The notes beneath the pieces were generated by a model. That model worked only from the letters and a program-made list of their open reading frames with translations. It was not told where the DNA came from and searched no databases. From Algisphaera agarilytica (GTDB lineage Bacteria > Planctomycetota > Phycisphaerae > Phycisphaerales > Phycisphaeraceae), in NCBI RefSeq assembly GCF_014207595.1, contig NZ_JACHGY010000001.1, positions 2,610,836-2,674,835 of the forward strand: DNA of 64,000 nucleotides. Reading direction: 5' to 3'. Position numbers and translations under genes: made by a program. Numbering within the stretch: position 1 is the stretch's first letter; the number at the start of each line of letters is the position of its first letter. Shown piece by piece: positions 4,152-49,305 of this stretch.

Positions 4152-4640
4152 ATGCTAGGCAAGACATTGCAACGGGTGATCGACCAAAAACTGACCTCCG
4201 CCAAAGAACTCGGCGAGCTGGCGGGCGTATCAACGTCCACGGTGTACCGCTGGATCGCGGGTCAGTCCCAGCCGGACTTCGATTCGATCCGGCTGCTGGT
4301 GCGTCACCTCCCGGACAACCGGGCACAGGAAGAAATCCTTCAGGCTTTTACGAGCGGCACGGATTGGCTTTGCACACGTTTGGATTTGGAGCTGGACGTG
4401 AACGACGACGGACGGATCGACGCAGACGACGCCCTGGACGCCACCATCGAGTGCGTCAAGGGGGCCAGCCAATCCCTCGCCTCCATCCGGGCCCGCTCGC
4501 ACGAGCCGATGACCTCCGACGAAACGCTCGAGACGGTCGCGCTCCTGAATCACGTCATGAAGCACTGCGCGATCACGCAGCGTGTCCTGGTCGAGATGTC
4601 CGAGCAACGCCGCAAGCGCAAGCTCAAACTCGTCAAGTGA
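4152..4640 (+). CDS. XRE-type helix-turn-helix protein with EF-hand/dockerin-like loop
   Basis: The 162-residue protein starts with an XRE-like DNA-binding domain (residues 5-60; SAKELGELAGVSTSTVYRW forms the helix-turn-helix). Residues 82-93 read DVNDDGRIDADD, with acidic or Asn residues at positions 1, 3, 5, 9 and 12, which fits a calcium-binding EF-hand or dockerin-type loop. A basic tail (RRKRKLKLVK) ends the protein. The function is probably transcriptional regulation; calcium binding is inference. AAAGGG eight bases before the ATG supports the start. It diverges from the lipoprotein gene and converges on the acyl-CoA ligase gene. Confidence 0.8.
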   Translation: MLGKTLQRVIDQKLTSAKELGELAGVSTSTVYRWIAGQSQPDFDSIRLLVRHLPDNRAQEEILQAFTSGTDWLCTRLDLELDVNDDGRIDADDALDATIECVKGASQSLASIRARSHEPMTSDETLETVALLNHVMKHCAITQRVLVEMSEQRRKRKLKLVK

Positions 4641-41681: not shown

Positions 41682-42545
41682 ATGACGCAATCCGATTCTC
41701 AGACCGATTCTCCGTCCCCCGCCAGTTCCGAGCCCCCGCCGCGTCCTGCGGGTATCGACCTGCGTGGCGTGTGGTTCGACCGGGTGACCCAAGCCCAGGC
41801 GGTGGACCACATCATGGTCCACCTCGATGCGGGGCAGGGCGGTTGGGTGATTACCTCGAACCTGGACCACCTGCTCCGGTCCGGCCGGGACCCCGAGTTC
41901 CGGGCGATGCTGGATGAGTGTGACCTGGTGGTGGCGGACGGGGCCCCGCTGGTCTGGGCGAGCAAGATCCAGGGGACACCCCTGCCCGAGCGTGTGGCGG
42001 GCTCGGAGATGGTTTGGTCCATTGCTGAAGCCGCAGCCAATCGGGATAAAAGTGTCTTTTTGTTGGGCGGCGACCCCGGCACCGCAGACGCGTCGGGTGA
42101 GGTTTTGGTTAGGAAATACCCTAATCTTCGGATCGCCGGGACGTTCTGTCCGCCGATGGGTTTTGAAAAAGACCCCGAGCAGATGGAAGCGATGACCCGG
42201 GCGTTGCGTGAATCGGGGGCCGACCTGGTGTATGTGGCCCTGGGTTCGCCGAAGCAGGAGCGTTTAATCCGTGAAATCCGCGAGGTTTTGCCCGGCGCGT
42301 GGTGGCTGGGGGTCGGGATCAGCCTCAGTTTTATCGCTGGCGAGGTGAAGCAGGCTCCGGTCCTGATACGGAAATTCGGCATGGAATGGATGCACCGGAT
42401 GCTCCAGGAACCCAAGCGATTGGCCCGGCGATACCTGATTGATGGTATCCCGTTTGCATTTGTTCTGATATCCTCAAGTGTCCTGCGACGCGTGGTCAAA
42501 AACCGTGCGGAGCTGGAAACACCCGCGGGCAGGAGGTCCGCATGA
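41682..42545 (+). CDS. WecG/TagA/CpsF family glycosyltransferase (GT26)
   Basis: A 287-residue GT26 enzyme, starting at ATG 41682; the upstream extension is a Thr/Lys-rich artefact of a tandem repeat. After a Ser/Pro-rich lead come the family motifs: WVITSNLDHLLRSGRDPEF, VVADGAPLVWASK (catalytic Asp), VFLLGGDPGTADA, YVALGSPKQERLI and SFIAGEVKQAPVLIRKFGMEW. Members transfer N-acetylmannosamine(-uronic acid) or glucose to lipid-linked GlcNAc, usually as the second sugar added. The C-terminal helix may be membrane-associated. The surroundings fit early repeat-unit assembly. Confidence 0.92.
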   Translation: MTQSDSQTDSPSPASSEPPPRPAGIDLRGVWFDRVTQAQAVDHIMVHLDAGQGGWVITSNLDHLLRSGRDPEFRAMLDECDLVVADGAPLVWASKIQGTPLPERVAGSEMVWSIAEAAANRDKSVFLLGGDPGTADASGEVLVRKYPNLRIAGTFCPPMGFEKDPEQMEAMTRALRESGADLVYVALGSPKQERLIREIREVLPGAWWLGVGISLSFIAGEVKQAPVLIRKFGMEWMHRMLQEPKRLARRYLIDGIPFAFVLISSSVLRRVVKNRAELETPAGRRSA

Positions 42546-42723: not shown

Positions 42724-43701
42724 ATGCTGTTCAGGATTACCGATCAGAGCACGATTCAGACCGGACGCCACCCCGGATTGGGGCGGCTGGGCCACCAATT
42801 ATCGGACCTCCGGGCCGTGGTGCTGCTCGCCGGTTCCGTGCGCGCCAACCAGCTCCGCAAAGCGACCGGCCGCAGTGCGCTGGAGATGCCCGTGGGCAGC
42901 AACCGCTCGGTGCTGGACTGCTGGCGTGAGCAACTGGTCACCATGGCCGAGCAGCTCGGGATCGCCAACCTGCCCGTCCGCGTGATGGTCGACCAGGCCA
43001 GCGGCATGACGCCCGGCGTGACTCAGCATGGCCCGGTGCAACTCTCCATCGAAATCGACCCCGGCGAGTTCCGCGGCACCGGCGGGCTGCTGTCGGACAT
43101 CGCCCGGGAGTACCGCGACGACGACCTGATCCTGGTCACCCACGCTTCGCAGCTGCTGTTCGAGCCGTTGGCTGAGCTGTCGGGCGCGATGGCGGAAGTC
43201 CACGCCGACGTGAGCATGATCTGCAGCGCCAACGGCACGCCCAGCGGGCTGATGCTGATGCGTTGCGGGTGCCTGCGTGACATCAACCCGGTAGGGTTTG
43301 TCGACCTCAACGAGCAAGCGCTGCCTTCGATCGCTGAGTCCCACGATGTCCGCGTCGTGCGCTACGACCAGCCGACCTCGCGGTCGCTGCGGACGTTGCC
43401 GGCGTACCTCGAAACGCTTCGTGAATACCACCGCCGACAGGCCGGCCCCAACGACAACTCGCCTCACCGCGAAGACTGGGAGAAAACCTTCGGCATCGTC
43501 GAGCCCGGTGCCCGCGTCCACGAGACCGCGATCATCCACGATTCGGTGATTCTCTCGGGCGCCCGTGTCGAGGCCCACGCCGTCCTGGTCCGCAGCGTCG
43601 TCTGCCCGGGCGTGTTGGTCGCTCGCGACCAGTCCGAAGTCGATTGCGTGGTCGGGGCCCGCGTCAACGGCAACCACTTCGTATTGCCCGCCCAATCCTG
43701 A
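42724..43701 (+). CDS. Degenerate nucleotidyltransferase-like protein with left-handed beta-helix tail
   Basis: A 325-residue protein with the layout of sugar-1-phosphate nucleotidyltransferases. LRAVVLLAGSVRANQLRKATGRSA occupies the place of the AGGxGTRLxPLT signature, but the GG and GTR residues are absent; PVGSNRSVLDCWREQL fits the following helix. From about residue 257, hexapeptide turns (IVEPGARVHETAIIHDSVIL, ARVEAHAVLVRSVVCPGVLV) form a left-handed beta-helix. It is probably a non-catalytic or altered-substrate relative. TAGGGA about ten bases upstream supports the ATG. It stands alone with 178 bases before it. Confidence 0.7.
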   Translation: MLFRITDQSTIQTGRHPGLGRLGHQLSDLRAVVLLAGSVRANQLRKATGRSALEMPVGSNRSVLDCWREQLVTMAEQLGIANLPVRVMVDQASGMTPGVTQHGPVQLSIEIDPGEFRGTGGLLSDIAREYRDDDLILVTHASQLLFEPLAELSGAMAEVHADVSMICSANGTPSGLMLMRCGCLRDINPVGFVDLNEQALPSIAESHDVRVVRYDQPTSRSLRTLPAYLETLREYHRRQAGPNDNSPHREDWEKTFGIVEPGARVHETAIIHDSVILSGARVEAHAVLVRSVVCPGVLVARDQSEVDCVVGARVNGNHFVLPAQS

Positions 43702-43865: not shown

Positions 43866-44747
43866 ATGATCTCGCGGCGACTGACAAAAAACGGCTGGAC
43901 GGTCTGGCACCTCATGTCGGCGATCACGATCGTGATCGCGGCGATGGCGGTGACATGGCGCGGCTGGGCGCAGATCATCGAGTTGGGTGTGACCCGTCCG
44001 GTGGCGGGCCACGTGTTCCTGGTGCCGGTGGTGGCGGTGTGGCTGGCGTGGGTGCGTCGCAAGCGGATGCTGCTGTGCCGCCCGTCGGGCTCGTTCCCGG
44101 GGATCGTGATCGCGGCGGTGGGCGCGGCGGCGTACGTGTACGGCGACAAGCGGGTGTACCCTTGGCTGTTCCACCTCGGGGCGGTCCTGCTGCCGGCGGG
44201 GTGTCTGGCAGCGATCATGGGCCGGCAAGTTCTCAAGTCCTACCTCCCGGCGTTTGTGGTGCTGCTGGGGCTGATCCCACCGCCGATCGCCTGGGCCGAG
44301 CAACTCGCCCAGCCGCTGCAGGTGGCCACGGGCAGCCTGACCTGCTGGATGTACTCGCTTTTGGGGTCCACCGCCTCGCTCAACGGCCAACACATCCGTA
44401 TTGGCGACGCGTCGATGCGGCTCAACGATGTGTGCAGCGGCCTGCCGATGGCGATGTCGCTGTTCCTGGTCAGCTACGGCTTCGTGTTCGGGGTGCCGCT
44501 GCGGATGTCGGTCCGGCTGGTGGTGCTGCTGCTGAGCCCGATCTCGGCGATCGTGTGCAGCGCCTTGGCCCTGCTCGGCACTTTCTGGCTGTACGGCGGG
44601 ATGTCGCAGGAGATGGCGGGGGTGTGGCTGCAGGTCGGGGAGTGGATCATGCTGCTGGTGGCGTTCCTGCTGCTGGTGGGGGCGATCCGCGGGCTGACCT
44701 GGGCCTCGGTGCCCATCCGGCGCTACACCCTGTCCTACGACCAATAA
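43866..44747 (+). CDS. Exosortase-family membrane protein, active site incomplete
   Basis: A 293-residue membrane protein with about eight hydrophobic helices and clear exosortase/archaeosortase architecture: LQVATGSLTCWMYSLLGSTA, then GQHIRIGDASMRLNDVCSGL, matching the conserved region that ends with the nucleophile Cys (C190). The next expected features are an NxxR motif and a later His. Here the corresponding SPISAIVCSALAL and YGGMSQEMAGVW stretches lack both Arg and His. Typical exosortases cleave PEP-CTERM sorting signals and are found in polysaccharide loci of biofilm bacteria. No protein in this window ends in a recognisable PEP-CTERM signal. It may be a regulatory or transport variant. 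Confidence 0.75.
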   Translation: MISRRLTKNGWTVWHLMSAITIVIAAMAVTWRGWAQIIELGVTRPVAGHVFLVPVVAVWLAWVRRKRMLLCRPSGSFPGIVIAAVGAAAYVYGDKRVYPWLFHLGAVLLPAGCLAAIMGRQVLKSYLPAFVVLLGLIPPPIAWAEQLAQPLQVATGSLTCWMYSLLGSTASLNGQHIRIGDASMRLNDVCSGLPMAMSLFLVSYGFVFGVPLRMSVRLVVLLLSPISAIVCSALALLGTFWLYGGMSQEMAGVWLQVGEWIMLLVAFLLLVGAIRGLTWASVPIRRYTLSYDQ

Positions 44748-45259
44748 CGCAATGGCCCCAGGGCCTGCCCGGAAAGGCGTCCGGAGAATCGGGGAGCTGG
44801 AAGAAATCGATGAAAAAAGACCCGCCGAATATCATGGCCCACCGCGATCCCGGGCCGATAAATACCGTAGTATCTGTGCCCGGGGTGGGTTTGCAGTGCT
44901 TCCGAGGAGTGCGAAGGGTTTTGGATCAAAGCCCAAGCCAGTGGCGGGTATAGTGTTGGCCGGGAAGCCGTAAATCGGTCGCTCGATATGGACGAAATGA
45001 ACCGTATGAGGTGAGCCGCTTGTCGCGGCATCGATGGATTGAGCGCCGAGGCCGATGCCTCGGCACGCAGCGCTGAAACGGGCCCAGGGCCCGAATCCAA
45101 GAACCCCGGGCGTCTGAAGGACGCCCACGATCAGGGACCCACGGGATGATTGCTCGGTACGACGGCCAATCACCCCCTCCGCGTCCCGCGTCGGGAGGTT
45201 CGAACAGCCCCCTTTACGATACGGCCGGCCCCCCGGCCTCAGGACGCGGAAAAAGTGCG
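44748..45259 (+). other. Leader region of the co-polymerase gene
   Basis: No supported gene. Near its end a perfect stem GGGCGTC/GACGCCC with loop TGAAG (45108-45126) is not followed by T, so it is a leader hairpin rather than a terminator. The frame of the following gene is open back to 45146 (ATG with AGGGA upstream), which is the alternative start. Confidence 0.5.
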
Positions 45260-47668
45260 ATGAGTGACGAACTGAACTTCAACGCCCCCAGCGGCACCCC
45301 CGTGATGCAAACCACCGGCGACGACGACTCGTCGCAGCGTCGCGAAAAGCTCATGTCTCTTCTGCGCGGCCGGCTCCACTGGGCCGTCCTCCTCTCGCTC
45401 ATCCTCGGCGGCGGCCTGGGCTACCTCGGCTACTCCAGCGTCGTCCCCATGTACCGCAGCACCGGCCAAGTTGTGGTCGAGAGCGAAGAACTGATCTTCG
45501 ATGGCATCGACGATTCCACGAGCAAGAAACGCTGGTACAGCTTCGTCGCCCGTCAGCAGCAGATGCTGCGCAGCCAGGAAGTCGCCGAGCGCGCGATGGC
45601 GTCGGACACCTGGAAGAGCCGCGGCGATGAGGCCGTGGAATGGACCCCGCAGCAATTCTCCAAGGCCATCGACACCGAGATCGATGAGCGTAACAACGAC
45701 AAGAACATCTTCACCATCTCCTTCGACGCACCGGACGCGATCACCGCGGGTGTCGGCAACCGTGCGTTGCTCGACGCCTACAGCGAAGAGTTCGACTACC
45801 GGGCCGAGACGCGTTTCATGAACCGCGTCACGCAGCTGCAGTCGCAGGTGCAGAAGTCGGAGATCAAGATCAAGCAGTACCTGGCTCAACGCCGGACCGT
45901 GCTGACCGACTACGAGTTCAATCAGATGGAAGCCGACATCCGGGCGCTGACCAACCAGCGGATCGAGCTCCAGGAAAACCTCGACACCGTCCGCGCCGAG
46001 CTCAACTCGCGCAACCCCATCCAGGAAGGCATGTCCACGAACCCCGCGGACCTGATCTCCAACGATCCCGTTCTGAATCAGATGCAGATCCAGATCGACG
46101 AGATCGAAGACAGGATCAAGGTGTTGGAGTTTGGCGGTAAAGGCCCCGGCCACCGTGAAGTCAAAGGCCTTAGCGCCGAACGTGACGTGCTCAACGCCAA
46201 GATGGAAGTGCGTATCGAGCAGCTGCTCAGCGAAGACATCGACGCCCTGATCGGCGACCCCGAGTACGACCGTCTGCGTCAGCTCGAACAGCTCTGGCAC
46301 CGCCAACTCGCCGATGTGCAGAGCCGCCTCGAAAAGCTCAACGCCAAGCAGGCCGAGGTCGCCGACCTCCAGGAGCTGATCGACGACGAGCAGCGGATCA
46401 TCGACAAGTCGCGTGACAGCATCAACGAGATCAACGTCGAGATGGACTCGCTCAAGGGCACCATCGACATCTTCGCTCCCGGGGCGACCCCCAGCTCGCC
46501 GGACAACGGCGGCAAGGCCAAGCAGGTCGCCGTGCTCGGCGGCATGGCCGGCACGGGCATCGGCTTCGGTTTCGTGATGCTGCTGGGTCTGCTCGACAGC
46601 CGCCTGCGTCACGCCGGCGACGCCCGCATGGGCCTCCGCGACACCCGCATGCTCGGCATCCTGCCGACGCTGCCGGAAAACTTCGCCGACCCCGAGCAGT
46701 CCGAACGGGCCGCTCACGCCGTGCACCACATCCGCACGCTCCTGCAGATTTCCAACCGCGGCACCGCCCGCGTGTTCAGCGTCACCAGCCCCGCCGCGGG
46801 CTCGGGCAAGAGCTCGCTTTCGGTCGCGATGGGCCTGTCCTTTGCCGCCAGTGAATCCAAGACGCTGGTCATCGACTGCGACCTCGTGGGTGCGGGCCTG
46901 ACCCGCCGCGTGGGTGCGGTGGTGAACCGCTCGGTCGAAGCGATCCTCCGCGAGGACACCGTGCTGACCGACGACCAGATCGCCAACGCCATGAGCCACG
47001 CCCGTGAGAAGGGCACCAACCTGAAAGACGCCCTCGTCGAACTGGGCATGCTCACCAAGAAAGACCTGCAGCGTCTGAACCGTCGCCAGGCCGACTCGGC
47101 GCTGGGCATCCTCGACGCCTGCCAGGGCCGCCCGTTCAGCGAGTGCGTGGCCAACACCGGCATCGAGAACTTCAACGTCCTGCCCATCGGCGCCGCCAAG
47201 CCGCAAGATGCCGGCCTGCTGTCGCCCAAGGCTATCCGCAATCTGATCGCCCGTGCCCGGGAAGAGTACGACATCGTCCTGCTCGACACCGGCCCGTGCC
47301 TGGGCTCACTCGAAGCGTCGATGTGTGCCGCCGAGGCCGACGCCACCGTGCTCATCGTGTCGCGTGGCGACTCCAAGTCGATGGCCACCAAGGCCCGCGA
47401 CCACCTGATCTCGGTCGGCGCCAACGTCGTGGGCTGCGTGTTCAACCACGCCCTCGAGGCCGACATGAACAGCGCGTCCTTCGCGTCGATCGTCAGCCAG
47501 GAACGCCGCACCGACCCCGCCCAGAGCCTGCTCTCGGCCGACCCCGCCATCGCGGCCCGCTTCGGCCCGCTCGGCTCGGCGGTCGCCGCCTTCGGCACGC
47601 CCAGCAAGTCGCCCAACGGCAAGCCCCGCCGCCAATCCGTCGCCAACGGAAGCAGCAACGGGCATTGA
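45260..47668 (+). CDS. Wzc-like polysaccharide co-polymerase/BY-kinase with helical insertion
   Basis: An 802-residue protein (from ATG 45260; 840 from 45146). It has a cytoplasmic lead, TM helix 1 (LHWAVLLSLILGGGLGYLGY), a large periplasmic coiled-coil region (~170-400), TM helix 2 (~420-443) and a C-terminal P-loop kinase. Walker A is GSGKS (514-518), Walker A' VIDCDL (D539, D541), Walker B VLLDTGP (D676). Between A' and B about 45 extra residues (~568-612; LTDDQIANAM...DALVELGMLTKKDLQRL) resemble the MshEN/GspE-N helical hairpin. The usual C-terminal Tyr cluster is missing; the tail is Ser/Asn-rich. It likely sets chain length and drives export, but autophosphorylation on a tail is doubtful. 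Confidence 0.88.
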   Translation: MSDELNFNAPSGTPVMQTTGDDDSSQRREKLMSLLRGRLHWAVLLSLILGGGLGYLGYSSVVPMYRSTGQVVVESEELIFDGIDDSTSKKRWYSFVARQQQMLRSQEVAERAMASDTWKSRGDEAVEWTPQQFSKAIDTEIDERNNDKNIFTISFDAPDAITAGVGNRALLDAYSEEFDYRAETRFMNRVTQLQSQVQKSEIKIKQYLAQRRTVLTDYEFNQMEADIRALTNQRIELQENLDTVRAELNSRNPIQEGMSTNPADLISNDPVLNQMQIQIDEIEDRIKVLEFGGKGPGHREVKGLSAERDVLNAKMEVRIEQLLSEDIDALIGDPEYDRLRQLEQLWHRQLADVQSRLEKLNAKQAEVADLQELIDDEQRIIDKSRDSINEINVEMDSLKGTIDIFAPGATPSSPDNGGKAKQVAVLGGMAGTGIGFGFVMLLGLLDSRLRHAGDARMGLRDTRMLGILPTLPENFADPEQSERAAHAVHHIRTLLQISNRGTARVFSVTSPAAGSGKSSLSVAMGLSFAASESKTLVIDCDLVGAGLTRRVGAVVNRSVEAILREDTVLTDDQIANAMSHAREKGTNLKDALVELGMLTKKDLQRLNRRQADSALGILDACQGRPFSECVANTGIENFNVLPIGAAKPQDAGLLSPKAIRNLIARAREEYDIVLLDTGPCLGSLEASMCAAEADATVLIVSRGDSKSMATKARDHLISVGANVVGCVFNHALEADMNSASFASIVSQERRTDPAQSLLSADPAIAARFGPLGSAVAAFGTPSKSPNGKPRRQSVANGSSNGH

Positions 47669-47874: not shown

Positions 47875-49305
47875 ATGATCACCCCGTCCGAACTGACTAC
47901 GCAATACGACGACCCCTCGGTGCCCCACACCGTGTGGGGGCTCGACGCGGTGCAGCTGCACGACCGCTTCTGGGCGGCCCGCGGGGTGCAGGTCGTTCGC
48001 CTGGGCGAGCCGTCGGACCTGGTGGAAGACGCCGAGCTGTTCCTGCTCACCGACCCGCACTCGCTGTCGATCTTCCGGCTGGGGCAGCTCGTCGACACGC
48101 TGAGCTGGCTCAAGCCCAAGGTGCTGTTCGTGCGTCTGCACAACACCCAGGAGCAGGGCTACTCCGAACGCGTGATCACCGACGAGAACGACCGCTTCAC
48201 CCGCTTCGAGCGCGTGTACAGCTCGCCCGACTGGCGGCTGGGGCGGGTCGCGCTGACGCCGTCGCGTGAACTGGCCCAACTCTGGCAACAAGCCTCGGAC
48301 GCCCGCACCGCTTGGCGTCTGCTGCGTCGCACGATCCCGCCGAACCAGCGGACGACCCTATCGGTCGGCGGCTGCGTCTACGACCGCGCCGAGGAATCGC
48401 AGGTGACCGAATTCATCCGCGAGTTGGTCACCGTCTGGAAGCGTCCGGACGCCACCATCCAGCGGGCCTCGCGTCTGGACCAGCAGGCCTGGGGCGATGT
48501 CACCGGCTCACGCCCCGACCACACCCGCTTCATCGGCCCGGTCTGGGTCGGCGCCGGCCGCGAACTCAGCCACGCCGGCTCCATCGTCGGCCCCGCCGTG
48601 CTGTGGGACGTCCCCGAGCAGCGCCCCGAAGTCGAAGAGCTGCAGTGGAAGCAGATCGAACTCACCGACGTGCTCACCGGGCCGATCAAGGTCCGCACGA
48701 TCTCGAACGTACAACGCGGGCTCAAGCGTTTGTTCGACCTCGGCTTCGCGCTGATTGCTTTGCTGCTGACCCTGCCGATCTATCCGCTGGTTATGCTGGC
48801 GATCCTGATCGAAGACGGCCGGCCGTTCTTCTTCGCCCACACCCGCGAGTCGCGTGGCGGCGTGAACTTCCCCTGCCTCAAGTTCCGCACCATGCGGAAG
48901 GACGCTGAGGACATCAAGAAGAAGCTGATGGAGCAGAACCAGGCCGACGGCCCGCAGTTCTTCATCGACGACGACCCCCGCATCTCGCGCGTCGGCAAGT
49001 TCCTCCGCGCGACCAACATCGACGAGCTGCCGCAGTTCCTCAACGTCATCGCAGGGCACATGGCCATCGTCGGCCCGCGCCCTAGCCCGTACAAAGAAAA
49101 CCAGTACTGCCCGCCGTGGCGCGAAGCCCGCCTCTCGGTCCGCCCCGGCGTCACCGGCCTGTGGCAGGTCAAGCGCTCCCGCGACGCCGGCCGCGACTTC
49201 CAGGAATGGATCCGCTACGACATCGAGTACGTCGAGAACTGGTCCTGGCGGATGGACCTCTACATCATCCTCAAGACCATGGCCGCGTTCGTCGGCATGA
49301 AGTGA
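47875..49305 (+). CDS. Initiating phosphoglycosyltransferase (bacterial sugar transferase family)
   Basis: A 476-residue protein. The C-terminal ~195 residues are the polyprenyl-phosphate sugar-1-phosphate transferase domain (WbaP/WcaJ type): RGLKRLFDLGFALIALLLTLP starts the membrane hairpin, followed by CLKFRTM, DPRISRVGKFLRATNIDELPQ, IVGPRPSPY and RPGVTGLWQV. It loads the first sugar-phosphate on undecaprenyl phosphate. The first ~280 residues are not the usual four-helix or CoA-binding-like region. They form a soluble domain with a short hexapeptide-like stretch (GPVWVGAGRELSHAGSIVGP). The start is preceded by a repeat block, with no clear Shine-Dalgarno. Confidence 0.9.
   Translation: MITPSELTTQYDDPSVPHTVWGLDAVQLHDRFWAARGVQVVRLGEPSDLVEDAELFLLTDPHSLSIFRLGQLVDTLSWLKPKVLFVRLHNTQEQGYSERVITDENDRFTRFERVYSSPDWRLGRVALTPSRELAQLWQQASDARTAWRLLRRTIPPNQRTTLSVGGCVYDRAEESQVTEFIRELVTVWKRPDATIQRASRLDQQAWGDVTGSRPDHTRFIGPVWVGAGRELSHAGSIVGPAVLWDVPEQRPEVEELQWKQIELTDVLTGPIKVRTISNVQRGLKRLFDLGFALIALLLTLPIYPLVMLAILIEDGRPFFFAHTRESRGGVNFPCLKFRTMRKDAEDIKKKLMEQNQADGPQFFIDDDPRISRVGKFLRATNIDELPQFLNVIAGHMAIVGPRPSPYKENQYCPPWREARLSVRPGVTGLWQVKRSRDAGRDFQEWIRYDIEYVENWSWRMDLYIILKTMAAFVGMK

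Follow-up and report, generated by a model that had tools for sequence, protein, structure and literature searches.

Does the P-loop domain of a polysaccharide co-polymerase hold a second-messenger binding module in its interior, and does such a module act as a switch? The question is raised by a gene at positions 45146-47668 of a 64,000-nucleotide stretch of the Algisphaera agarilytica genome (hereafter the window; all features given below lie on its plus strand). The open reading frame encodes 840 residues and matches the profiles TIGR01007, TIGR03017 and AAA_31, as expected for a Wzc-like (PCP-2a-type) co-polymerase. The N-terminal part is EpsF-like (TIGR03017, aa 157-493, E = 5e-12) and the P-loop domain is of the BY-kinase type (TIGR01007, E = 2e-25), both matches lying under the respective cut-offs. 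The protein is a fused co-polymerase that joins these two parts in one chain.

The gene is surrounded by other exopolysaccharide (EPS) genes, namely a WecG/TagA/CpsF glycosyltransferase (41682-42545; PF03808, E = 9e-56), an exosortase of the EpsH family (43866-44747; PF09721, E = 4e-29) and a polyprenyl-phosphate sugar transferase (47875-49305; PF02397, E = 2e-58). This gene order is largely syntenic in relatives, with the insertion described below present or absent. A further gene at 42724-43701 keeps its place beside WecG and the exosortase or the co-polymerase; inspected by eye, it resembles a sugar nucleotidyltransferase whose N-terminal signature is degenerate, and its C-terminal part gives a weak match to NF052502. 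In the congeners L036 and L037 no exosortase match was found between the conserved gene of this type and the co-polymerase (about 4180-4620), unlike in the window and in L038, where an exosortase is present at that place.

Alignment with BY-kinases locates Walker A (SPAAGSGKSS, 46787-46816, with GSGKSS at aa 552), Walker A' (LVIDCDL, 46865-46885, aa 574) and Walker B (VLLDTGP, 47276-47296, aa 711). Between the conserved LVID and GILD blocks the window protein has 88 residues, compared with 30 in canonical BY-kinases and in members of its own family in which the same site is cleanly empty. The additional 58 residues (46913-47086, aa about 590-647, with edges uncertain by a few residues) are a clean insertion that directly follows the Walker A' strand and precedes Walker B; the canonical kinases align here with a gap of 58 residues and not gap-free, as a real insertion demands. 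The initial annotation had placed some 45 extra residues between Walker A' and Walker B. Their place was right and their number too small; the segment it delimited as the whole insertion, 46961-47095 (aa 606-650), starts at the second helix and misses the first.

Within the insertion, repeat I (SVEAILREDTVLTDDQIANAMSHA, 46931-47002, aa 596-619) and repeat II (NLKDALVELGMLTKKDLQRLNRRQ, 47018-47089, aa 625-648) comprise 24 residues each and are separated by a spacer of five residues (47003-47017, aa 620-624), which offsets them by 29 residues. This arrangement of 24+5+24 = 53 residues is almost gapless throughout the family and corresponds to the published layout of MshEN_N (PMC5013675). A search of the window fragment with NF053729, the profile of the MshE-related c-di-GMP motif, gave E = 4e-7 and 29.7 bits, short of the curated cut-off of 38 bits. 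When all six frames of the 4.2 Mb genome were searched with the same profile, the insertion was one of eight matches (E = 4e-6). Both E-values indicate that the match is more than chance. The same insertion in seven orthologs reaches 56-67 bits and covers 52-53 of the 53 profile positions. The best Pfam match to the insertion, the fumarase C-terminus (PF10415), stayed under its cut-off.

The predicted fold points in the same direction. AlphaFold2, given the window insertion alone, returned a bundle of four helices (7+14+7+15 residues) with a mean pLDDT of 74, from an alignment of four sequences only. Among solved structures Foldseek ranked MshE with bound c-di-GMP (5htl_B) first, with a probability of 1.00, a TM score of 0.75 and an rmsd of 1.0 over 56 columns, though with a chain this short the E-value is no better than 0.079. 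With VIA, the comparison to 5htl gave Z = 9.8 and an rmsd of 2.0 over 59 residues. Fumarase structures scored about 7 (highest Z = 7.1, with most rmsd values at 3.5-5) and were rejected, as MshE and most PilF entries score higher at lower rmsd. Since Z-scores under about 13 can reflect an arrangement that is common in helical bundles, the fold match was weighed jointly with the profile match. In a model that covers the entire P-loop domain, with a mean pLDDT of 87.6, the insertion again forms four separate helices, with a pLDDT of about 84-94, and stands apart from the normal kinase core. Hence, profile matches and predicted fold together identify the insertion as a complete MshEN_N domain, and the MshEN/GspE-N-like repeat pattern noticed initially held up under both the profile search and the structural comparison proposed for it.

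The P-loop core of the model matches Wzc with Z = 27 and CapAB with Z = 28 (PDB 3la6, 4jlv), and shares with them Walker A, the two Asp residues of Walker A' and Walker B. Besides the insertion, it differs from these kinases in several motifs. ExxRxxR in helix 2 is the oligomerisation motif of BY-kinases; the co-polymerase family has HxxHxxR instead. The Walker A' motif DxDxR, which belongs to the definition of BY-kinases (PMC12220298), reads DCDLV, with both Asp kept and the Arg replaced by Val. In line with the initial annotation, the last 73 residues contain no Tyr, against 7-9 per 30 tail residues in the outgroup BY-kinases. The window protein thus has a BY-kinase fold, while the lack of a Tyr cluster, HxxHxxR and the lost Walker A' Arg make autokinase activity doubtful. 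The Tyr cluster is also missing from family members without the insertion. The suggestion of a switch that had come in place of tyrosine phosphorylation is therefore not upheld, and the insertion finds no support as the cause of the loss. Where BY-kinases have the cluster, the window protein carries the tail motif RFGPLGSAVAAF (47558-47593). Its rough form, (R)(F/Y/L)GP(L/I/V)xxAVA, is shared by many members of the family, whether or not they have the insertion.

To evaluate the putative ligand site, the residues at the nucleotide-contacting positions of MshE were compared. In repeat I of the window copy, R9, G11, L29 and Q32 are replaced by S, E, M and A; in repeat II, R38, G40 and L58 are replaced by N, K and N, and L54 and Q61 are kept, as are the turn glycine of this repeat and most of the hydrophobic core. 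The two guanine-contacting glycines, G11 and G40, are thus both lost. Among 49 distinct full-length copies of the family, 32 retain both, together with most other contacts. When the copies were sorted by G11 and G40, a grouping that is circular for these two columns, Q61, hydrophobic L58 and L29 were each found in 32/32 of the copies with both glycines and in 7/17, 5/17 and 5/17, respectively, of the remainder; core position I20 is kept in all 49. Fisher values on the contact columns ignore the shared descent of the copies, and independent decay events with tree support are few, with only one independent pair on starred branches. Q32, the final Gln of repeat I, which hydrogen-bonds the ligand in MshE (PMC5013675), is replaced in 31 of the 32 otherwise intact copies, mostly by Ala or Ser. 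Gln ends both repeats in just one copy, L013, which nests among decayed copies beside the insertion-free L031. Judged by these residues, the ligand contacts have decayed repeatedly as the core of the fold stayed, and the window copy is among the decayed ones.

Published binding data help to weigh these replacements. The isolated MshEN_N of MshE (residues 1-62) binds c-di-GMP at 0.35 µM without the second subdomain, and the variants G11L and G40I bind poorly if at all (PMC5013675). With Glu at G11 and Lys at G40, c-di-GMP binding by the window protein is therefore unlikely, and the idea that it binds the nucleotide, put forward initially as a conjecture, is not borne out by a site that has lost both glycines and other contacts. 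In Xanthomonas XpsE, comparable changes went along with lost binding (PMC5013675), and Q190E weakens PilF (PMC11731258). Since some binders tolerate imperfect motifs, as a screen that found binding proteins with less conserved sites illustrates (PMC5013675), weak binding may persist. In the insertion-bearing orthologs that keep the contacts, which are the majority, binding is plausible from the conserved residues. Missing c-di-GMP signalling can be ruled out as the reason for the decay: GGDEF (diguanylate cyclase) domains were found in 61 of the 61 genomes searched, including 13 in the genome of the window.

The survey of planctomycete homologues that had been proposed found full-span matches with the insertion in 32 of 298 genomes of the class Phycisphaerae; most of the remaining genomes with a match show it broken in two at the site of the insertion. 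In 392 genomes of the phylum, matches at E <= 1e-50 occur only in the order of the window. A careful tree of 76 proteins, from which the insertion columns were removed and the longest branches and near copies omitted, shows two changes of insertion state, fitting one gain and one loss, the loss being in the nested branch L031 (support 100/81); the contacts change between intact and decayed six times. On a quicker tree of 93 proteins, with long branches kept, the insertion changes five times and the contacts seven times. The deepest forks are poorly supported, so that at the base either gain or loss may apply. Given the two changes on the careful tree, the insertion was probably gained once, in an ancestor of the Phycisphaerae co-polymerase family. 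A paralog clade (L002 at G000:C1:2765805, L035, L113, L117, L119 and L003), which includes two copies from the same genome as the window, has at the same site only a remnant resembling repeat II.

The pairing of MshEN with a BY-kinase is already known in kind. EpsG (TIGR03029) likewise joins the two within an EPS system of the EpsF/EpsG type, and positions 4-56 of its profile match the insertion. In EpsG, however, MshEN stands at the N-terminus of a kinase that is a polypeptide separate from EpsF, whereas in the window protein, a fused co-polymerase, the domain is internal and flanked by Walker A' and Walker B. The window protein scores 71 bits against a curated EpsG cut-off of 313.8. A protein from the same order (L132, genome G060) is EpsG-like, with 301 bits, just under the cut-off, and both its MshEN repeats precede the kinase. 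Among the MshEN proteins listed by Wang et al. is one for EPS synthesis in Methylobacillus; EpsG is not named in their text (PMC5013675). The MshEN/GspE-N domain of Vibrio cholerae MshE (PDB 5htl; NF053729) has the 24+5+24 repeats and the four-helix fold in common with the insertion, and orthologs of the window protein match its full motif. The insertion differs in lying inside a P-loop domain without an MshEN_C subdomain, in the key contacts missing from the window copy and in the replacement of Q32 nearly family-wide. In Escherichia coli NfrB, MshEN is attached to a c-di-GMP-activated EPS enzyme, here a glycosyltransferase and not a co-polymerase (NF008411; PMC8669469); the NF008411 profile matches the insertion weakly. 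The new part is the internal position, and no description of an internal MshEN in a BY-kinase was found in the titles and abstracts of open-licence literature.

Taken as a whole, these observations are best explained, and in our judgement probably so, by a domain that was gained once, binds c-di-GMP in most members and has become a binding-dead structural or docking module in the window lineage. Placed after the Walker A' strand in an ancestor of the family, the inserted MshEN_N would in most members bind one c-di-GMP, as fold and conserved residues suggest. The bound nucleotide may then change how the co-polymerase turns over ATP or assembles its ring, and with it the output of exopolysaccharide. 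In the window lineage, where the contacts decayed and the bundle core was kept, binding has most likely been lost, and the domain would be a fixed structural module or, as a guess, one that docks another protein.

Docking or assembly could instead be the role of the domain in the whole family, which we regard as unlikely. A precedent is X. citri PilB, in which a four-helix MshEN_N-like subdomain lacks the c-di-GMP motif and the N-terminal fragment holding it binds PilZ (PMC8389850); its structures match the window model with Z = 6.5-6.8, and a core that outlasts its contacts in the window lineage would suit such a role. Docking alone, however, does not predict a nucleotide-contact pattern kept in 32 of 49 copies across deep branches. 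Retained binding of c-di-GMP, or of a different cyclic dinucleotide, in a modified pocket of the window copy, which would let the switch work here too, is improbable with charged residues at both guanine-contacting positions, Asn at L58 and the precedents of MshE G11L/G40I and XpsE, even though L54, Q61, the turn glycine and most of the core are retained, GGDEF proteins are present, PilF GSPII-B, which lacks the motif arginines, binds at 6 nM (PMC11731258), and the binding screen found proteins with less conserved sites (PMC5013675). Slimmer still are the prospects that the insertion is a spacer, neutral or of structural value only, which a surface loop tolerates. Its complete loss in L031, its reduction to half in the paralog clade and the six changes of contact state would fit such a spacer, but its length is nearly fixed and the contact residues are conserved in most lineages.

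Under the preferred reading of a single gain followed by decay in the window lineage, a more specific role can be proposed tentatively. The switching of Wzc-type co-polymerases is attributed to cycles of phosphorylation on the Tyr tail (PMC12220298). In the intact orthologs, c-di-GMP on the inserted MshEN_N could possibly act directly on the ATP site or the ring of a co-polymerase without a Tyr tail, switching it where phosphorylation cycling normally acts, and the window lineage would have become disconnected from this control. If so, a c-di-GMP-type domain in the ATPase core of a protein with no Tyr tail would link the second messenger directly to polysaccharide export, and as the family holds natural intact, decayed and insertion-free versions, the idea is open to comparison.
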